43,517 nucleotides of DNA. Origin: Bifidobacterium breve. Lineage in GTDB: Bacteria > Actinomycetota > Acidimicrobiia > Acidimicrobiales > Acidimicrobilacustridaceae. A program made the position numbers and the translations under genes. The notes beneath the pieces are model-generated. The model had not been told where the DNA came from. It saw only the letters and a list, made by a program, of their open reading frames with translations, and did not search any database. The stretch lies in contig CAMAYJ010000010.1 of assembly GCA_945862505.1 (NCBI GenBank), positions 1-43,517 on the forward strand, in the 5' to 3' direction. Below are positions 5,338-10,970 of the stretch, in pieces. Position 1 is the first letter of the stretch. The number at the start of each line of letters is the position of its first letter.

Positions 5338-6135
5338 TTACGACTTGCTACCGACCGGTGTCGTCCAATTCGGCTGAATGGTGAGTTTGCCGGTTGGATC
5401 AAAGAGCAGTTTGCCGTCAGGTGTGATGAGTTCGCCGGCAGCATCGAGCATCGGCTTTCCATCGGCATAAGTGATGTTGCCTTCGGCATCGACTGTGGTC
5501 TTGCCACCCGAAAGTGTTTCCCACTCGTAACGAACAACGGCGAGTAACTGGGCCTGGCTGAGGGACTTGTCGAAGTTCGGCATCGGATTGCCGTTGTAAC
5601 TCATCGTCTTGTGCTGTCCACCTGCACGAGCCGGGTCGCCATAGGGCGTGCCCGCGGGCCCGGTGCCATTCGAACCAATCCAGACAAACTCGAGTTGTCC
5701 GATGATGTCGGGGAAGGTGGCGACTAGGGCGCCGTCGGTCATCACACGTCCGACGCCACCGCCACCTCCAGCACCGTGACAGCCGGCGCAATTGGTGGCG
5801 AAGATCGCTTGACCTGTTGCAAGTTGTGATGGCTCACCATTTGACGAAGGCGAAAGGCCTCCGATGTAAATGACGGCCCACAGCGGCAGAAAAGCAAGCA
5901 CGGGCATGGCCCAGTAGGGGATCTTCTTCCGCTTGAGCGCAGCTTCGACATACGGCGGAACTGGTTCCGGCGCGGCCGCAGGGACAACGGCGGCAGGCGC
6001 AGCGGCCGCAGTGGCCTTCTCGATCGGGGCACTTTGGGCAGCAGGCGCGGCCTCGGTCGCGTCGGGGGATCCACCGTCGAGCGATGTCCGACGGTCTTTA
6101 GAGCGCTTGAGCAGGTGCTCGGGTACTTCGGTCAC
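5338..6135 (-). CDS. Membrane-anchored mono-haem cytochrome c
   Basis: 265 residues. A cytoplasmic N-terminal tail rich in Ala and Pro (1-65) is followed by one membrane segment (about 74-93) and an exported class I cytochrome c domain with the haem site CAGCH (Cys116, Cys119, His120). Met185 in NPMPNF is the likely sixth haem ligand. The C terminus (about 215-253) holds two to three copies of a short DxxGxxxxxDGK-type repeat. The start is a GTG at 6133-6135 with GGAGG 5 bases upstream. The N terminus, MTEVPEHLLKRS, closely matches that of the cytochrome b partner subunit at 8211. Divergent from the Rieske/cytochrome b genes, it probably carries electrons to or from that complex; this role is inferred from position. 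The exact subfamily is not recognised. Confidence 0.85.
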   Translation of the reverse strand: MTEVPEHLLKRSKDRRTSLDGGSPDATEAAPAAQSAPIEKATAAAAPAAVVPAAAPEPVPPYVEAALKRKKIPYWAMPVLAFLPLWAVIYIGGLSPSSNGEPSQLATGQAIFATNCAGCHGAGGGGGVGRVMTDGALVATFPDIIGQLEFVWIGSNGTGPAGTPYGDPARAGGQHKTMSYNGNPMPNFDKSLSQAQLLAVVRYEWETLSGGKTTVDAEGNITYADGKPMLDAAGELITPDGKLLFDPTGKLTIQPNWTTPVGSKS

Positions 6136-6433
6136 GGTTCCTCCGAAGCGGACGGGGAGTTATGGGAGCAGTGATCTTGGCGGGTTCGCCGGCGAAGCCG
6201 ACGGACACCTGCCGTAAGGAGTCAAACCTAGACGACGCGGAGAGCGCGGAGCCAAGTATGGGCTCTCGAATCTCGGTGTCTCGCAAAAATCTGTCCGGTG
6301 AAATGTCACCCCCTTGGATGTCTCAACTCCCCCGCGGCGGTGCTAGACAAGTGGGGCGCCATTCGGCATGTTCGGCATGGCAGAGTTACGTCCAGACCAT
6401 TTGTGCAAACGTTCACGAGGGAGGCCAACCCGG
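6136..6433. promoter_or_regulatory. Divergent control region between cytochrome c and the Rieske/cytochrome b genes
   Basis: About 298 bases, or 232 if the downstream gene starts at 6368. It must carry promoters for both directions, but I see no convincing -35/-10 pair. Visible elements: the perfect palindrome TTCGCCGGCGAA (6185-6196); an inverted repeat GGTGA-AATG-TCACC (6297-6310), a possible operator; and a perfect tandem 9-mer TTCGGCATG (6362-6370, 6371-6379). The GGAGG for the minus-strand cytochrome c and the GGGAGG for the plus-strand gene lie at the two ends. Confidence 0.5.
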
Positions 6434-6889
6434 GTGGTTGCGTTCATCGCATCGGTAATTGTGACGGTCCTCTTGACCGCACTTGTTATTCCGATGGCCA
6501 AGCGACGTCCAGTAGGTACACCGCTCACATGGGGTGAGGCAATGGTCGCCTCTGTGTATGCGTTTTTCCTTATGTTTTGGGCCTATGGGCTCGTCCCTCA
6601 TCTGTTTCTCACGTGGACGGACAATGAACTGGGGTGGCGTCCCGACAAACTTCTTTTTGGTCCCGGATCGATCCTCAAGCCTCAGGCTCTCGGGGGCTGG
6701 AGCCCAATCACGATCACTTACCAAACCATTCGCGATATCGCGGCGGTCTTGATCTATGTCGTCCTTCTCGGCGTGCAGATCGCCCTCTGGGTCTGGTGGC
6801 AAAACCGAGGCAAGCGAGCCGCTGCAGCGGAATCGGCGCAGGCAACCGCCACCTCCGAATACGGCCGACCCCTGGTTCGGAAGAGCTGA
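6434..6889 (+). CDS. Small membrane protein of the Rieske/cytochrome b gene cluster, function unknown
   Basis: About 151 residues from the GTG at 6434, which has GGGAGG about 10 bases upstream. An ATG at 6368 in the same frame would add 22 residues (MFGMAELRPDH...), and the choice is open. Three hydrophobic segments are seen: one at the N terminus (VVAFIASVIVTVLLTALVI), one around EAMVASVYAFFLMFWAYG, and one near the C terminus (AAVLIYVVLLGVQIALWVW), followed by a basic and Ala-rich tail. I see no haem or iron-sulfur motif and do not recognise the family. It ends 2 bases before the ferredoxin gene and leads the cytochrome b operon, so it may anchor the ferredoxin-like protein to the membrane complex. 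That is inference. Confidence 0.8.
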   Translation: MVAFIASVIVTVLLTALVIPMAKRRPVGTPLTWGEAMVASVYAFFLMFWAYGLVPHLFLTWTDNELGWRPDKLLFGPGSILKPQALGGWSPITITYQTIRDIAAVLIYVVLLGVQIALWVWWQNRGKRAAAAESAQATATSEYGRPLVRKS

Positions 6890-6891
6890 CC

Positions 6892-7308
6892 ATGGCCCGC
6901 ATTGACGCCAATCCTCCGATGCCCGAATTCCGCGACGATTACGTCCTGCGGGAAGTCGACGCGGAATGGCTGTCGAAGGCGGTCAAGCCCAAGCAATTCA
7001 TTCATATTGATCAGTCTGAGTGCATCACCTGCGAAGGCTGTGTCGATATTTGTCCCTGGAAGTGCATTCACCTGGTTCGCACTTCTTCCATTGACGAGGC
7101 CATCGGCACCGAAATGCCGGGGGATGACCCAGGCGACCATTCGGTCTTCCTCATTGACGACGATGTTTGTACCCGATGCGCACTTTGCGTCGACCGCTGT
7201 CCCACAGGTGTCATCATTCTCGGAAAGGTCGGCGCTGCGCCGGCCGATGGTGACTCCCACCAACGCACGGCCACCCATGGTTATGGGTACGGCATGCGCC
7301 TCGGTTAG
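6892..7308 (+). CDS. Two-cluster [4Fe-4S] ferredoxin-like protein (NuoI-like fold)
   Basis: 138 residues with two classic CxxCxxCxxxC motifs: Cys44, 47, 50, 54 (CITCEGCVDIC) and Cys93, 96, 99, 103 (CTRCALCVDRC), each expected to hold a [4Fe-4S] cluster. An extra Cys58 follows the first motif as in NuoI proteins, and 38 residues separate the motifs, so it looks more like a NuoI or membrane-complex ferredoxin subunit than a small soluble ferredoxin. The ATG at 6892 begins 2 bases after the membrane-protein gene. It lies upstream of cytochrome b, an unusual neighbour for a Rieske complex. It may deliver electrons to the cytochrome b complex or to the 11-subunit complex I. Its role is inferred only from context. 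Confidence 0.85.
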   Translation: MARIDANPPMPEFRDDYVLREVDAEWLSKAVKPKQFIHIDQSECITCEGCVDICPWKCIHLVRTSSIDEAIGTEMPGDDPGDHSVFLIDDDVCTRCALCVDRCPTGVIILGKVGAAPADGDSHQRTATHGYGYGMRLG

Positions 7309-7411: not shown

Positions 7412-8200
7412 TTGGCCAAGACCATGGAGCGTCCCAACGGGAAGAAGACCCCCGCACAACGCGTCAGTGAAGTCGTCGACAAGACGCAGGGCTCACAAGC
7501 CTGGAATTCAATCTTTCGACCAGGCTCGGTCTTCCGAAAGGGCTACACCGATAGCCCTCGTAACCGTTCGTACGTGATCATGAACAGCGTGCTGTACCAC
7601 CTTCACCCGGTGAAGGTGAAGCGACACGCGGTCAAGGTCAGCTACACCCTGTGCCTCGGCGGCCTGAGCTTTTTCCTCTTTATTCTGCTGACCATCACGG
7701 GTATTTTCCTGATGTTCTTCTACCGCCCCACCGCGGCGCAGGCATGGAATGACATCTACACACTGCAAACCTCAGTGGCCTTTGGTCTGCTCGTGCGAAA
7801 TATGCACAGATGGGGGGCCCACCTCATGGTGTTGACGGTCTTTCTGCATATGGCTCGCGTCTTTTATCACGGCGCCTACAAGCCACCTCGAGAATTCAAC
7901 TGGGTGATCGGCGTCATTCTTCTGACCCTGACCCTTCTTCTTTCCTTCACCGGCTACCTGCTTCCGTGGGATCAGCTCGCACTTTGGGCGGTGACGGTCG
8001 GTACGAACATGATGGGCTACACCCCTGTGTTCGGTGACCAAGTCAGATTCGTGCTCCTTGGTGGTAAGGAAATCGGTACCGACACGCTGTTGCGTTGGTA
8101 TGTGTTGCATGTGTTGTTTGTTCCGTTCGTGACCGTCATCTTTCTTGCGATCCACTTCTGGCGGGTCCGCAAGGACGGCGGCATCTCCGGACCGTTGTGA
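7412..8200 (+). CDS. qcrB: Cytochrome b, b6-type N-terminal half of a split cytochrome b
   Basis: 262 residues. After a 55-residue basic cytoplasmic leader come four membrane helices. Two pairs of haem-binding His are seen: in RNMHRWGAHLMVLTVFLHM (14 apart) and in LHVLFVPFVTVIFLAIH (15 apart, the spacing typical of b6). GYLLPWDQ and KPPREFNW are the usual loops. Cys81 in YTLCLGG lies where the haem-ci-binding Cys of cytochrome b6 is found. With the next gene it forms the quinol-oxidising membrane core of a Rieske/cytochrome b complex (complex III or b6f equivalent). The start is a TTG at 7412 with GGAG 8 bases upstream; an ATG at 7424 is the alternative. Splitting cytochrome b is not the usual state in Actinobacteria such as Mycobacterium. 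Confidence 0.93.
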   Translation: MAKTMERPNGKKTPAQRVSEVVDKTQGSQAWNSIFRPGSVFRKGYTDSPRNRSYVIMNSVLYHLHPVKVKRHAVKVSYTLCLGGLSFFLFILLTITGIFLMFFYRPTAAQAWNDIYTLQTSVAFGLLVRNMHRWGAHLMVLTVFLHMARVFYHGAYKPPREFNWVIGVILLTLTLLLSFTGYLLPWDQLALWAVTVGTNMMGYTPVFGDQVRFVLLGGKEIGTDTLLRWYVLHVLFVPFVTVIFLAIHFWRVRKDGGISGPL

Positions 8201-8210
8201 TCGAGGAGCC

Positions 8211-8990
8211 ATGACCGAGATCCCTGAACATCTCCGTAAGCGAGCCGAAGAGGCCAAGGCCAAGGCAGCAGCCAAGGCCGCTGGTGACGCGCCTGCCGAG
8301 GCCGCTACTGAAGCACCCGCGGCTGCCGAAAGCGCTGGCGACAGTCGCATTCCGGCCCATTTGCTTGCGCGTTCCAAGTCCGCAAAGGCCAACAAGGAAG
8401 GTGGCGCGCCAGCCACCGCTCCTGCTGCAACCGGCGGCGGCGTCGCCACCGCAGTTGCCGATGCCGCCCCGCCTCCGACCGTCACTGGTCCCGGGGGACA
8501 CACGCAGCGTCTCCTCACCGTGGTGAAGGCCGGCTCGATTCAGGATCTGAAGTCGACCCCGATCGACAAGGTTCACACTTGGCCACATCTGTTGGCCGTT
8601 GAATTTGTTGCCGCGTTGGCCATCACGGTTTTCACCTTGATCTTCTCGATCTTCGTGAATGCCCCACTGCTTGAACTGGCGAATATCAACCAAACCCCGA
8701 ACCCTTCGAAGGCCCCATGGTATTTCCTCGGTCTTCAGGAACTTCTCACCATGTTCCACCCCATGGTTGCTGGTGTGACCATCCCGGGCATGGGCATTTT
8801 CTTGCTCATTCTTTCCCCGTATATCGATCGCAATCCTTCAAATAAACCTGAGGATCGCAAGTTTGCGATCTCACTTTTCACGATTCAGATGATGTTCTGG
8901 GCCGTGCTTGTCATTATTGGTTCCTTCTTCCGTGGTCCTGGCTTCAACTTTGTGACGCCGTGGACTGGCGGTCTGTTCTTCGAGTTGTGA
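8211..8990 (+). CDS. Cytochrome b C-terminal half (subunit IV / PetD-like) with Ala/Lys-rich N-terminal extension
   Basis: 259 residues. The first 110 or so are low in complexity (Ala, Pro, Lys) and begin MTEIPEHLRKRAEE; a second copy of the motif, RIPAHLLARSKSAK, lies near residue 45. The rest has three membrane helices matching the C-terminal part of cytochrome b: LLAVEFVAALAITVFTLIF, the NPSKAPWYFLGLQELL Qo-site loop, and IPGMGIFLLILSPYIDRNP. The PEWY motif of bc1 and b6f enzymes reads APWY here, so the catalytic Glu is missing. The ATG at 8211 follows GAGGAG. It lies 10 bases after the b6-like gene. Together the two would form one quinol oxidation site with the Rieske protein. Confidence 0.9.
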   Translation: MTEIPEHLRKRAEEAKAKAAAKAAGDAPAEAATEAPAAAESAGDSRIPAHLLARSKSAKANKEGGAPATAPAATGGGVATAVADAAPPPTVTGPGGHTQRLLTVVKAGSIQDLKSTPIDKVHTWPHLLAVEFVAALAITVFTLIFSIFVNAPLLELANINQTPNPSKAPWYFLGLQELLTMFHPMVAGVTIPGMGIFLLILSPYIDRNPSNKPEDRKFAISLFTIQMMFWAVLVIIGSFFRGPGFNFVTPWTGGLFFEL

Positions 8991-9015: not shown

Positions 9016-9870
9016 ATGAATCCTCTAGTCATCGTCATCCCCGTCGTCGTCGTTCTTGCCGGCGTGGTGTTGTTCGCTGCTTCACGTCGACGCGACAGTG
9101 GCGGCGCTACTGGTGCGTTGAGCCGCGAAACGCTAAAGCGCGACAAGTCGGCAACCGCGCTTGAGTCCGACGCCGAACTTGTTGGCGTGTCGGGTCGTCA
9201 GGTGGAAGCATCCGCGGCGCTCGATCGTCGACCGGCCGCTCCGGCAACAACGAATACTGAAGTTGCGCCATTCGTTCCGCCCGACGCCGATGCACTCGGT
9301 ATCTCGCGCCGCAAGTTCTTCAACCGTTCCATCATCGTGTTGATGGGCCTCAGCCTTTCGGGCTTTGGTGCGGCGATTCTGGCGTTCCTTTGGCCGATGC
9401 CGAAGGGTGGCTTTGGTTCAAAGATCCGCGTCGGCAATGTGGCCGAGATTTCCGCCAAGATCACGGCGAGCAAGGGGTTCCTGTACTCCGCCGAAGGTCG
9501 CATGTGGATGACTAACTATCCGATTTCAGCGTTCGAGAAGGCGAAGAAGGTCTACCCGGCAGCGGTGCTTCCGTCGATGGAAGCGGGCATCGTTGCGCTC
9601 TATCAAAAGTGTCCGCATCTCGGTTGCCGTGTTCCTTCTTGTGCAACCTCGCAGTGGTTCGAATGCCCGTGCCACGGTTCGCAGTACAACGCGGCCGGTG
9701 AGAAGAAGGGTGGTCCGGCGCCTCGGGGCATGGATCGCTTCGCGACTTCGGTCACTGGCGGCGTGCTCACCGTCGATACGGGCCAGATCTTCCAAGGTCC
9801 GGCGATCGGAACCAATACGACTGGCCAAGAAGCTGAAGGCCCGCATTGCGTGGGTGGAGGAGAGCACTGA
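9016..9870 (+). CDS. qcrA: Rieske [2Fe-2S] protein of the cytochrome b complex
   Basis: 284 residues. The cluster motifs are complete: CPHLGC (ligands Cys199 and His201, disulfide Cys204) and CPCHGS (ligands Cys217 and His220, disulfide Cys219). A hydrophobic stretch at residues 3-22 and a second at about 107-127 suggest two membrane passes; the second is preceded by SRRKFFNR, a twin-arginine signal, as expected for a folded Fe-S protein exported by Tat. Between them is a charged linker. The protein takes the first electron from quinol at the Qo site and hands it to cytochrome c. AGGAG lies 10 bases before the ATG. Its TGA overlaps the ATG of the di-haem cytochrome gene by one base. Confidence 0.95.
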   Translation: MNPLVIVIPVVVVLAGVVLFAASRRRDSGGATGALSRETLKRDKSATALESDAELVGVSGRQVEASAALDRRPAAPATTNTEVAPFVPPDADALGISRRKFFNRSIIVLMGLSLSGFGAAILAFLWPMPKGGFGSKIRVGNVAEISAKITASKGFLYSAEGRMWMTNYPISAFEKAKKVYPAAVLPSMEAGIVALYQKCPHLGCRVPSCATSQWFECPCHGSQYNAAGEKKGGPAPRGMDRFATSVTGGVLTVDTGQIFQGPAIGTNTTGQEAEGPHCVGGGEH

Positions 9871-10970
9871 TGCACGACCTGTATCTCTTGGCCAGCGCAC
9901 AAAAGACGGTCGGCTATGTGGTTGCCGTCGTTTTGCTTCTCGGGTTTGTGGTCGCCATCGCCGTCAACGTGCGCAAGGGACGCGCCGAGGTTGGTTCGGA
10001 AATCGAACTTGCCCCGAATCGCAAGCCCTACATGGACGACGAGGAACTCGAAACGAAGAAACTCGACCGCACACTCGGTCTTGGTCTCGTTGCGCTCGGT
10101 GTCATTGCACTCGCATTGCCGCTCTACTGGCTCGCTGAACCAAGTCGTCAAACTGACATGGTGAAGGAATTCGAAGATGTTGCGGTCTCACGCGGCGAAA
10201 ACATTTATGTGAATGCAGCGCAGTGCGCGAATTGTCACGGTCCTAACGGTGTTGGTGGTGCTGCGAGTTACACGATCCTCGATCCAAAGACCGGCGCGTA
10301 TGTCGATCAGGTTCAGTGGAAAGCTCCCGCCCTCGACACGGTGATGTATCGCTACACCCCCGAGCAGGTCACCTACATCCTCAATTACGGGCGTGGCTAC
10401 TCGCCGATGCCAGCATGGGGTGCACCCGGTGGTGGTCCACTCACCGAGCAACAAATCGCTGACGTAATCGCGTATCTCACCTCGATTCAGTTACCAGCTG
10501 AAGAGTCTCAGAAGGCTGTGCAAGAGGAACTCGACAAGGTGTGCAAAGCCGACGCGGCCAACAACTGCACTATTGCCGGTGGTTCCTACAAGACGCTTGG
10601 TGAAGCAATCTTCAACCTCGGTTATTCCGATGGCTTCGCCGCGGGCGCCTATGCCTGCGGCCGTTGCCACACCTCGGGTTGGTCCTACGGCAAAGCGCAA
10701 GTCGCCGGCGGTGGAGCCATGGGCCCCAACTTCACCGGTGGGTCTGAAATTCGCCAGTTCCCCGTGGCGGAAAAGCAGGCGGAATTTGTTTCGGCCTACC
10801 CGAAGATGGGTACGTCCTATGGCACTAACGGGTGGTCAAGCGGCCGAATGGGCAGCTTCGGCACCAACCCCAGTGCGGCTGATCCCAAGACCGCAATCAT
10901 GAGTCAGGATCAGGTCATGCTCACGCCCAATCAGATCGCGGCAGTTGTCGCTTACGAGCGGACCCTTTAA
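9870..10970 (+). CDS. Membrane-bound di-haem cytochrome c of the Rieske/cytochrome b complex
   Basis: 366 residues with two hydrophobic segments near the N terminus (about 13-33 and 70-88) and two haem c sites: CANCH (Cys119, Cys122, His123) and CGRCH (Cys263, Cys266, His267). Met180 in SPMPAWG is the likely sixth ligand of the first haem. It takes the place of cytochrome c1 or f as electron acceptor from the Rieske protein, similar in role to actinobacterial QcrC, which is also di-haem, but I would not call it a clear QcrC. The ATG at 9870 overlaps the qcrA stop and has GGAGGAGAG upstream; an in-frame ATG at 9846 lies inside qcrA and is less likely. The downstream gene starts on the last base of its TAA. 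Confidence 0.92.
   Translation: MHDLYLLASAQKTVGYVVAVVLLLGFVVAIAVNVRKGRAEVGSEIELAPNRKPYMDDEELETKKLDRTLGLGLVALGVIALALPLYWLAEPSRQTDMVKEFEDVAVSRGENIYVNAAQCANCHGPNGVGGAASYTILDPKTGAYVDQVQWKAPALDTVMYRYTPEQVTYILNYGRGYSPMPAWGAPGGGPLTEQQIADVIAYLTSIQLPAEESQKAVQEELDKVCKADAANNCTIAGGSYKTLGEAIFNLGYSDGFAAGAYACGRCHTSGWSYGKAQVAGGGAMGPNFTGGSEIRQFPVAEKQAEFVSAYPKMGTSYGTNGWSSGRMGSFGTNPSAADPKTAIMSQDQVMLTPNQIAAVVAYERTL

Follow-up and report, generated by a model that had tools for sequence, protein, structure and literature searches.

The window, by which we mean the whole stretch of 43,517 nucleotides that was analysed, contains the operon of a bc complex. The operon encodes MemX, Fd, PetB, PetD, a Rieske subunit, CytC2 and an unnamed protein, and is followed by nuo genes (Table 1). 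The gene of a further cytochrome c, CytC1, is located upstream of the bc operon and is transcribed divergently.

Table 1. Features of the window that are discussed in the text.
Feature	Coordinates	Strand	Description
CytC1	5338..6135	-	Monohaem cytochrome c, putatively membrane-anchored; N-terminal tail of ~60 aa; cytochrome cy-like architecture
Module copy in CytC1	6100..6126	-	VPEHLLKRS; profile match 6046-6138, E 8e-12 (sequence in profile)
MemX	6434..6889	+	Small membrane protein of the operon; orthologues align from VVAF on
Fd	6892..7308	+	Dicluster 4Fe-4S ferredoxin of the bc operon; Pfam Fer4 families; start 6892
PetB	7412..8200	+	N-terminal half of cytochrome b; Pfam Cytochrome_B E 1.1e-45; without module
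PetD	8211..8990	+	PetD-like subunit (C-terminal half of cytochrome b); Ala/Pro-rich N-terminal tail of ~90 aa
PetD module copy 1	8220..8246	+	IPEHLRKRA; profile match 8208-8300, E 5.7e-11 (sequence in profile)
PetD module copy 2	8349..8375	+	IPAHLLARS; profile match 8343-8429, E 2.6e-5
Rieske	9016..9870	+	Rieske iron-sulphur subunit; Pfam Rieske E 3.2e-10; without module
CytC2	9870..10970	+	Cytochrome c subunit of the bc operon; Pfam Cytochrom_C E 2.1e-13; without module

CytC1 matches Pfam Cytochrom_C (E 1.2e-7). Its gene starts with GTG, with GGAGG just before, and its N-terminus reads MTEVPEHLLKRS. We classify CytC1 as cytochrome cy-like, as a predicted helix (residues 74-94, mean pLDDT 82.9) is followed by one haem domain with invariant C116, C119 and H120. 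The helix would span the membrane, which would place the haem domain outside. An assignment of CytC1 as the CcoP subunit of a cbb3 oxidase was rejected, as its match to the curated CcoP model TIGR00782 (E 1.1e-7, 31.4 bits) is far below the cut-off of 179.95; yet relatives of CytC1 adjoin FixO or COX1 genes in other families. PetD matches Pfam Cytochrom_B_C (PF00032, E 7.9e-8, 32.9 bits) above the cut-off of 20.7, and the order of its gene with those of PetB and the Rieske subunit identifies it as subunit IV/PetD. The PetD core of a record titled Bifidobacterium breve (L276), probably a misnamed bin, is 100% identical to that of the window. The Fd gene is a steady part of this operon: wherever a locus extends more than 5 kb upstream of PetD the gene is present (56 of 56 loci), and 18 of 20 neighbourhoods from other classes have it too. 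This suggests that the bc complex includes a dedicated electron-transfer subunit on the cytoplasmic side. MemX is likewise present in all 56 of these loci.

The N-terminal regions of CytC1 and PetD share a module of the approximate form [IVLM]PxxLLxR[SA], which occurs twice in PetD. The PetD N-terminus, including the first copy, reads MTEIPEHLRKRA; the second copy, IPAHLLARSKSAK, begins at residue 47, where relatives mostly have IPAHLLERS. A preliminary description of this DNA had reported a motif common to the two N-termini and had placed it at 8211-8390. Both N-termini read as described there and all three copies are confirmed. The two PetD copies are within these coordinates; the CytC1 copy lies outside them, on the opposite strand at 6126-6100. 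The frame 6368-6889 was considered as a third carrier, since it seems to open with RPDHLCKRS upstream of the likely MemX start. It was not counted as a module, since orthologues align only from VVAF on and the stretch is not kept.

The similarity exceeds chance in the host genome. The DNA pattern [ILVM]PxH[LF][LF]xR occurs at five places in 2.3 Mb, compared to none for a reversed control. Two of these places are in the CytC1 and PetD genes and the other three are in frames of 87-127 aa; the first PetD copy (HLRKR) is outside this pattern. With a looser DNA pattern, 32 places were found compared to 15 for the control. A 31-column profile of the module (A1) results in just three host matches at E≤1, all in CytC1 and PetD. 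As two of the window copies are themselves part of A1, only the match of the second PetD copy (E 2.6e-5) is independent in this genome. Recovery in other genomes is a stronger test of the module than the host search.

To the locus sample for such a comparison we admitted relatives by their PetD core alone and kept the best 80 of at least 589 in named genomes, so that the sample leans to close relatives; it includes Acidimicrobiia, Acidimicrobiales, Microthrix and Ilumatobacteraceae, among others. In these best 80 loci, the module is found at 15 bits or more in 73 of the 76 PetD frames with a marker peptide, 46 of them with two or more copies, and in 60 of the 61 CytC1 frames. Two of the three PetD misses are cut at a contig end and the third is interrupted by a stop, with the motif visible in the part upstream of it; the CytC1 exception carries the variant TEIPQHLLDRT. 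Among 11,039 six-frame ORFs, only two other frames score, and both read as gene fragments, one of PetD and one of CytC1.

The conservation is confined to the module. The mean frequency of the top residue at positions 4-11 from the start is 0.93 in 72 PetD and 0.89 in 59 CytC1 sequences, in a set of uncut frames that was chosen by a loose form of the motif, which slightly favours these positions (59 of the 61 CytC1 passed). For linker residues 25-60, the corresponding values are 0.27 in PetD and 0.35 in CytC1. In an alignment of 46 CytC1 sequences, the invariant columns are M1, P5, L8, R69, P73, P84, C116, C119, H120, G124, G126 and M185. Thus, P5 and L8 of the module are as invariant as the haem CxxCH motif.

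Furthermore, the modules of PetD and CytC1 are more similar within a locus than between mismatched loci, with means of 57.05 compared to 53.66 for 73 loci, a few genomes being present twice, and of 58.29 compared to 52.71 for 34 non-redundant loci. None of 20,000 permutations, which ignore phylogeny, reached the observed value in either set. Residues 12-24 alone co-vary weakly (the value is reached by 1,393 of 20,000 permutations for the 73 loci and by 174 of 20,000 for the 34 non-redundant loci). In nine of nine pairs of PetD and CytC1 modules, half or more of the identical residues have different synonymous codons, a count taken without a background rate; this speaks against recent gene conversion in those pairs.

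We then find the module across the class. In 119 class genomes, a strict DNA pattern occurs at 119 places in 78 genomes, compared to 22 places for the reversed control. Some of these places are chance, and many form pairs about 2 kb apart, one on each strand. The PetD core is detected at E≤0.001 in 105 of these 119 genomes, a number that includes matches to some frames of more distant cytochrome b. Where a PetD tail lacks the strict pattern, it mostly has a relaxed form, e.g. IPEDLLRRSAEAKAKALG, and the module is present in most PetD tails that were read across the class. The best A1 match has E<1e-6 in 53 of 60 class genomes. The remaining seven are five genomes without a PetD match, G020 and G036, whose PetD has a single divergent copy, IPENLLERA (best A1 match in the genome E 0.69). 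No PetD match was obtained for ten near-complete genomes of this order (G014, G047, G055, G059, G063, G067, G099, G102, G106 and G118), and it is possible that families f3, f4 and f5 have lost this bc complex.

When the search is extended to 198 genomes of the phylum, A1 matches at E≤0.001 are found in 15, all of which belong to the class, i.e. in 15 of its 17 members; the other two (G014 and G047) have no PetD match. None of the 181 genomes outside the class has an A1 match at E≤0.001 among the candidates scored, at most 39 per genome. A strict DNA pattern for the whole phylum, which does not cover Lys at one position, gave 13 places outside the class in 396 phylum genomes, and we judged these by eye to be chance. 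Neither of the two outcomes that the preliminary description named as contrary to it is seen: the module is not frequent in unrelated proteins, be it in the host genome, in the closest loci or in the profile searches of the phylum, and nearly all orthologues of PetD and CytC1 in the sample of closest loci have it. PetD orthologues outside the class have Ala/Pro-rich N-terminal tails too, on which A1 scores at most 3.3 bits in the 40 frames read. These tails (L440-L499) have different conserved stretches, e.g. PDEVYEQVLAEETAKGSSPAVAQARAKAARVRA or IDQEVYDRLIAEGKSERIARAKAKAA. A profile built from them scores in PetD in 19 of 20 neighbourhoods, as expected by construction, and in no other protein. 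Aligning the class module to this out-of-class PetD module with hhalign results in a local probability of 10-22% over 13-14 columns (E 0.001-0.003 for one comparison). The out-of-class module is found in two copies in L450/L483 and L457/L489.

Several other proteins of the class also carry the module, as seen in a survey of 20 stretches fetched from among the matches listed. In family f13, it is carried by KorA, the alpha subunit of 2-oxoacid:ferredoxin oxidoreductase, in which it is located in the N-terminal tail (L257 and L260) or in the C-terminal tail (L256, L258 and L259). L258 and L260 match TIGR03710 with E ~1e-195, and the other three were recognised as KorA by sequence. CcoO/FixO-like cytochromes carry it as well, with FixO matches in L275 and L213 and similarity by eye in L435-L438. 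A third type of carrier is a polytopic membrane protein of about 400 aa at ten look-alike loci (L262-L270 and L274). The four tested (L262, L263, L270 and L274) match no plausible Pfam family, and in L270 and L274 they adjoin COX3 and Caa3_CtaG genes, i.e. genes of a caa3 oxidase. Relatives of CytC1 adjoin FixO or COX1 genes according to Pfam in L206, L213 and L275, and are near such genes by eye in L205, L212 and L435-L438; one relative has three modules. In other families of the class, the motif thus marks further electron-transport proteins as well. The observation is larger than first noted.

In many carriers outside the window, the module extends to about 45 residues (profile A5). This long form has a first helix of net positive and a second of net negative charge; the short copies of the window have only the positive helix, with net charges of +2, +3 and +3. 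Three observations concern single loci. In L435:4462-6238, from a family with small genomes, the N-terminal tails of neighbouring CcoO-like and CytC1-like proteins are identical over about 70 residues, which suggests local copying of the tail. In L120:1076-1522, a protein of one genome that is weakly Nfu_N-like (Pfam E 0.0018, below the cut-off) ends in VPPHLLERSRAARARLKG. Frames with module copies are also found in G038 (L271).

Neither Pfam nor the PDB has a significant match to the module. Six module peptides gave nothing above a curated Pfam cut-off (best E 0.11). The same holds for 21 extended modules, for which five families matched below the cut-off with one member each (best E 0.019). 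In a sequence-profile search of the PDB, the best match has E 0.19 with A5, and A1 gave none up to E 10.

In PetD, AlphaFold2 predicts one helix at residues 6-23 (block mean pLDDT 72-81 for residues 1-20) and another at residues 49-63 (46-68); the helix predicted in CytC1 covers residues 6-19 (82-83). Linker blocks have a pLDDT of 32-46 in PetD and 47-53 in CytC1. As the overall quality of the PetD model is low (mean pLDDT 58.8, pTM 0.25), we use only its helix tendency. In these models, the module helices are predicted to sit inside tails that are mostly disordered. The motif had been described as amphipathic. However, the same hydrophobic moment is reached in 17-38% of shuffles of three module peptides, so that the helix is not unusually amphipathic and a membrane-surface helix is not supported. 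A conserved phosphorylation site was rejected, as Ala follows the Arg in 92% of first PetD copies. The N-terminus of subunit IV is on the n-side, and in KorA the module is cytoplasmic, since KorA is a soluble enzyme. From this topology and the soluble carrier, we infer that the tails face the cytoplasm.

A helical module that is short, recurs within flexible tails and is common to electron-transport proteins, at both N- and C-termini, has the look of a docking site. We think it probable that the module is portable and serves for docking: placed on disordered tails in the cytoplasm, it would gather electron-transport proteins by binding a shared partner. The core of about 20 residues, or the helical mini-domain of about 45 residues in other families, would act as a plug into a shared cytoplasmic site, and the flexible Ala/Pro-rich tail as its tether. 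The plug would keep the bc complex, via PetD, and its putatively membrane-anchored CytC1 near each other. In other families, oxidase-associated proteins and the 2-oxoacid:ferredoxin oxidoreductase would be held near the bc complex too. Candidates for the shared site are a hub, the Fd of the operon or the module itself.

The preliminary description had likewise proposed a docking site that gathers respiratory proteins. The distribution of the module fits this proposal, except for genomes in which PetD is the sole carrier. When 13 genomes were searched again at E≤0.1, the matches were in PetD only in nine (G003, G107, G072, G048, G052, G068, G015, G009 and G032) if two partial non-PetD matches with E>0.07, one each in G107 and G068, are set aside; at E≤1, a few more weak matches appear in some of the nine. 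The nine genomes (PetD only at E<0.07) span families f11, f16, f19, f20, f22, f27 and f28, and that of G003 is a single contig. The gathering of several module-bearing proteins is thus not universal. With PetD as the sole carrier in nine of the 13 genomes, joining PetD to CytC1 cannot be the only job of the module, which in PetD should also function independently of CytC1.

Among the alternatives, the one that survives best is that the modules bind one another without a hub, so that PetD tails pair with the tails of CytC1 or oxidases, or the two PetD subunits of the bc dimer pair with each other. The same module on every carrier, the similarity matched within loci and the tails with two or three copies would all fit such pairing, which the positive first and negative second helix of the long form could favour. 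However, the short copies of the window have the positive helix only, and in the nine genomes where PetD is the sole carrier just the pairing within the bc dimer is left. We consider this alternative rather unlikely.

A second alternative is that Fd of the bc operon docks onto the module, which thereby brings ferredoxin-using enzymes to the bc complex. Fd, on the cytoplasmic side, is a speculative candidate for the partner: its gene is steadily present as described above, and KorA, which reduces ferredoxin, carries the module in family f13. However, there is no known reason for CytC1 and CcoO to bind ferredoxin, and Fd also accompanies PetD modules of a different sequence, which makes this reading improbable.

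More improbable still, in our estimate, is a handle for a shared factor of assembly, insertion or turnover, such as a chaperone, insertase or protease adaptor, in place of lasting docking. Most copies are at the extreme N-terminus, the identified carriers are redox or oxidase-related, and the weakly Nfu_N-like protein has the motif at its end, which is consistent with a handle. However, the internal second and third copies and the C-terminal copy in KorA are hard to reconcile with a signal that is N-terminal and purely co-translational. Furthermore, the cofactor-bearing Rieske subunit (21 neighbourhoods), CytC2 and Fd have no match to the module profile of 8 bits or more. Lastly, the tails are of low complexity and Ala/Pro-rich, and basic, Ala-rich tails might have converged by chance or through their composition. 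This is already contradicted by the conservation confined to the module, by the specificity for two genes in the closest relatives and by the 181 genomes of other classes, none of which matches at E≤0.001, and we give it next to no credence.

Returning to the docking module that we favour, a broader version of it is possible, though tentative. One helical module, grafted onto cytoplasmic tails, may serve as a 'plug' system of the Acidimicrobiia that wires the bc complex and its cytochrome c to terminal oxidases and to a soluble enzyme that reduces ferredoxin. Electrons from the oxidation of 2-oxoacids may then pass via a bc-bound ferredoxin within one assembly, and other classes of Actinomycetota may rely on PetD modules of their own to the same end. 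Should the module dock, bacteria would have a simple and transferable means of arranging a respiratory chain from the cytoplasmic side, and its sequence would mark the proteins that are part of the assembly. This would suggest how respiratory complexes hold together in the Acidimicrobiia, which are known here mainly from metagenome-assembled genomes.

When comparing the module to known systems, two small binding elements come to mind. The FtsZ C-terminal peptide is a short conserved docking peptide that ends a disordered linker. FtsZ ends of the class, e.g. DFDVPSFL, are loosely similar to the module ([IV]P followed by a hydrophobic pair); however, the module is repeated and present on several proteins. 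Identity with the FtsZ peptide was rejected, as HLLxR[SA] is absent from 10 of 10 FtsZ C-termini of the class. The peripheral subunit-binding domain of pyruvate dehydrogenase E2 is a small helical binding module with an Ala/Pro-rich linker, and it is not among the Pfam families matched by the module peptides. Three motif strings are absent from the literature searched, where a match anywhere in the text was counted, and no such motif is described in the best-ranked papers on the subject, as far as their titles and the opening parts of their abstracts show.

Among respiratory assemblies, mycobacteria and corynebacteria have an obligate III2IV2 supercomplex, in which the dihaem cytochrome cc of complex III is the electronic link, according to the available excerpt of PMC8361435. 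This system likewise belongs to the Actinomycetota and couples complexes III and IV. In contrast, cytochrome b is split here and the proposed link is a tail module, which that excerpt does not mention. Within the literature seen in this form, the closest system is the bc1-cbb3-cytochrome cy supercomplex of Rhodobacter capsulatus. The available part of PMC7876108 reports that the native supercomplexes are scarce and unstable, and that for this reason they were joined on the n-side by an engineered fusion. Both systems combine a bc complex with a membrane-anchored cytochrome c, putatively so in CytC1, and the module too would be on n-side tails. Unlike the assembly described in that part of PMC7876108, the one proposed here involves a conserved natural tail module, in another phylum and known from sequences. 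If the module docks, it would be a natural counterpart of the engineered inner-side fusion of Rhodobacter.
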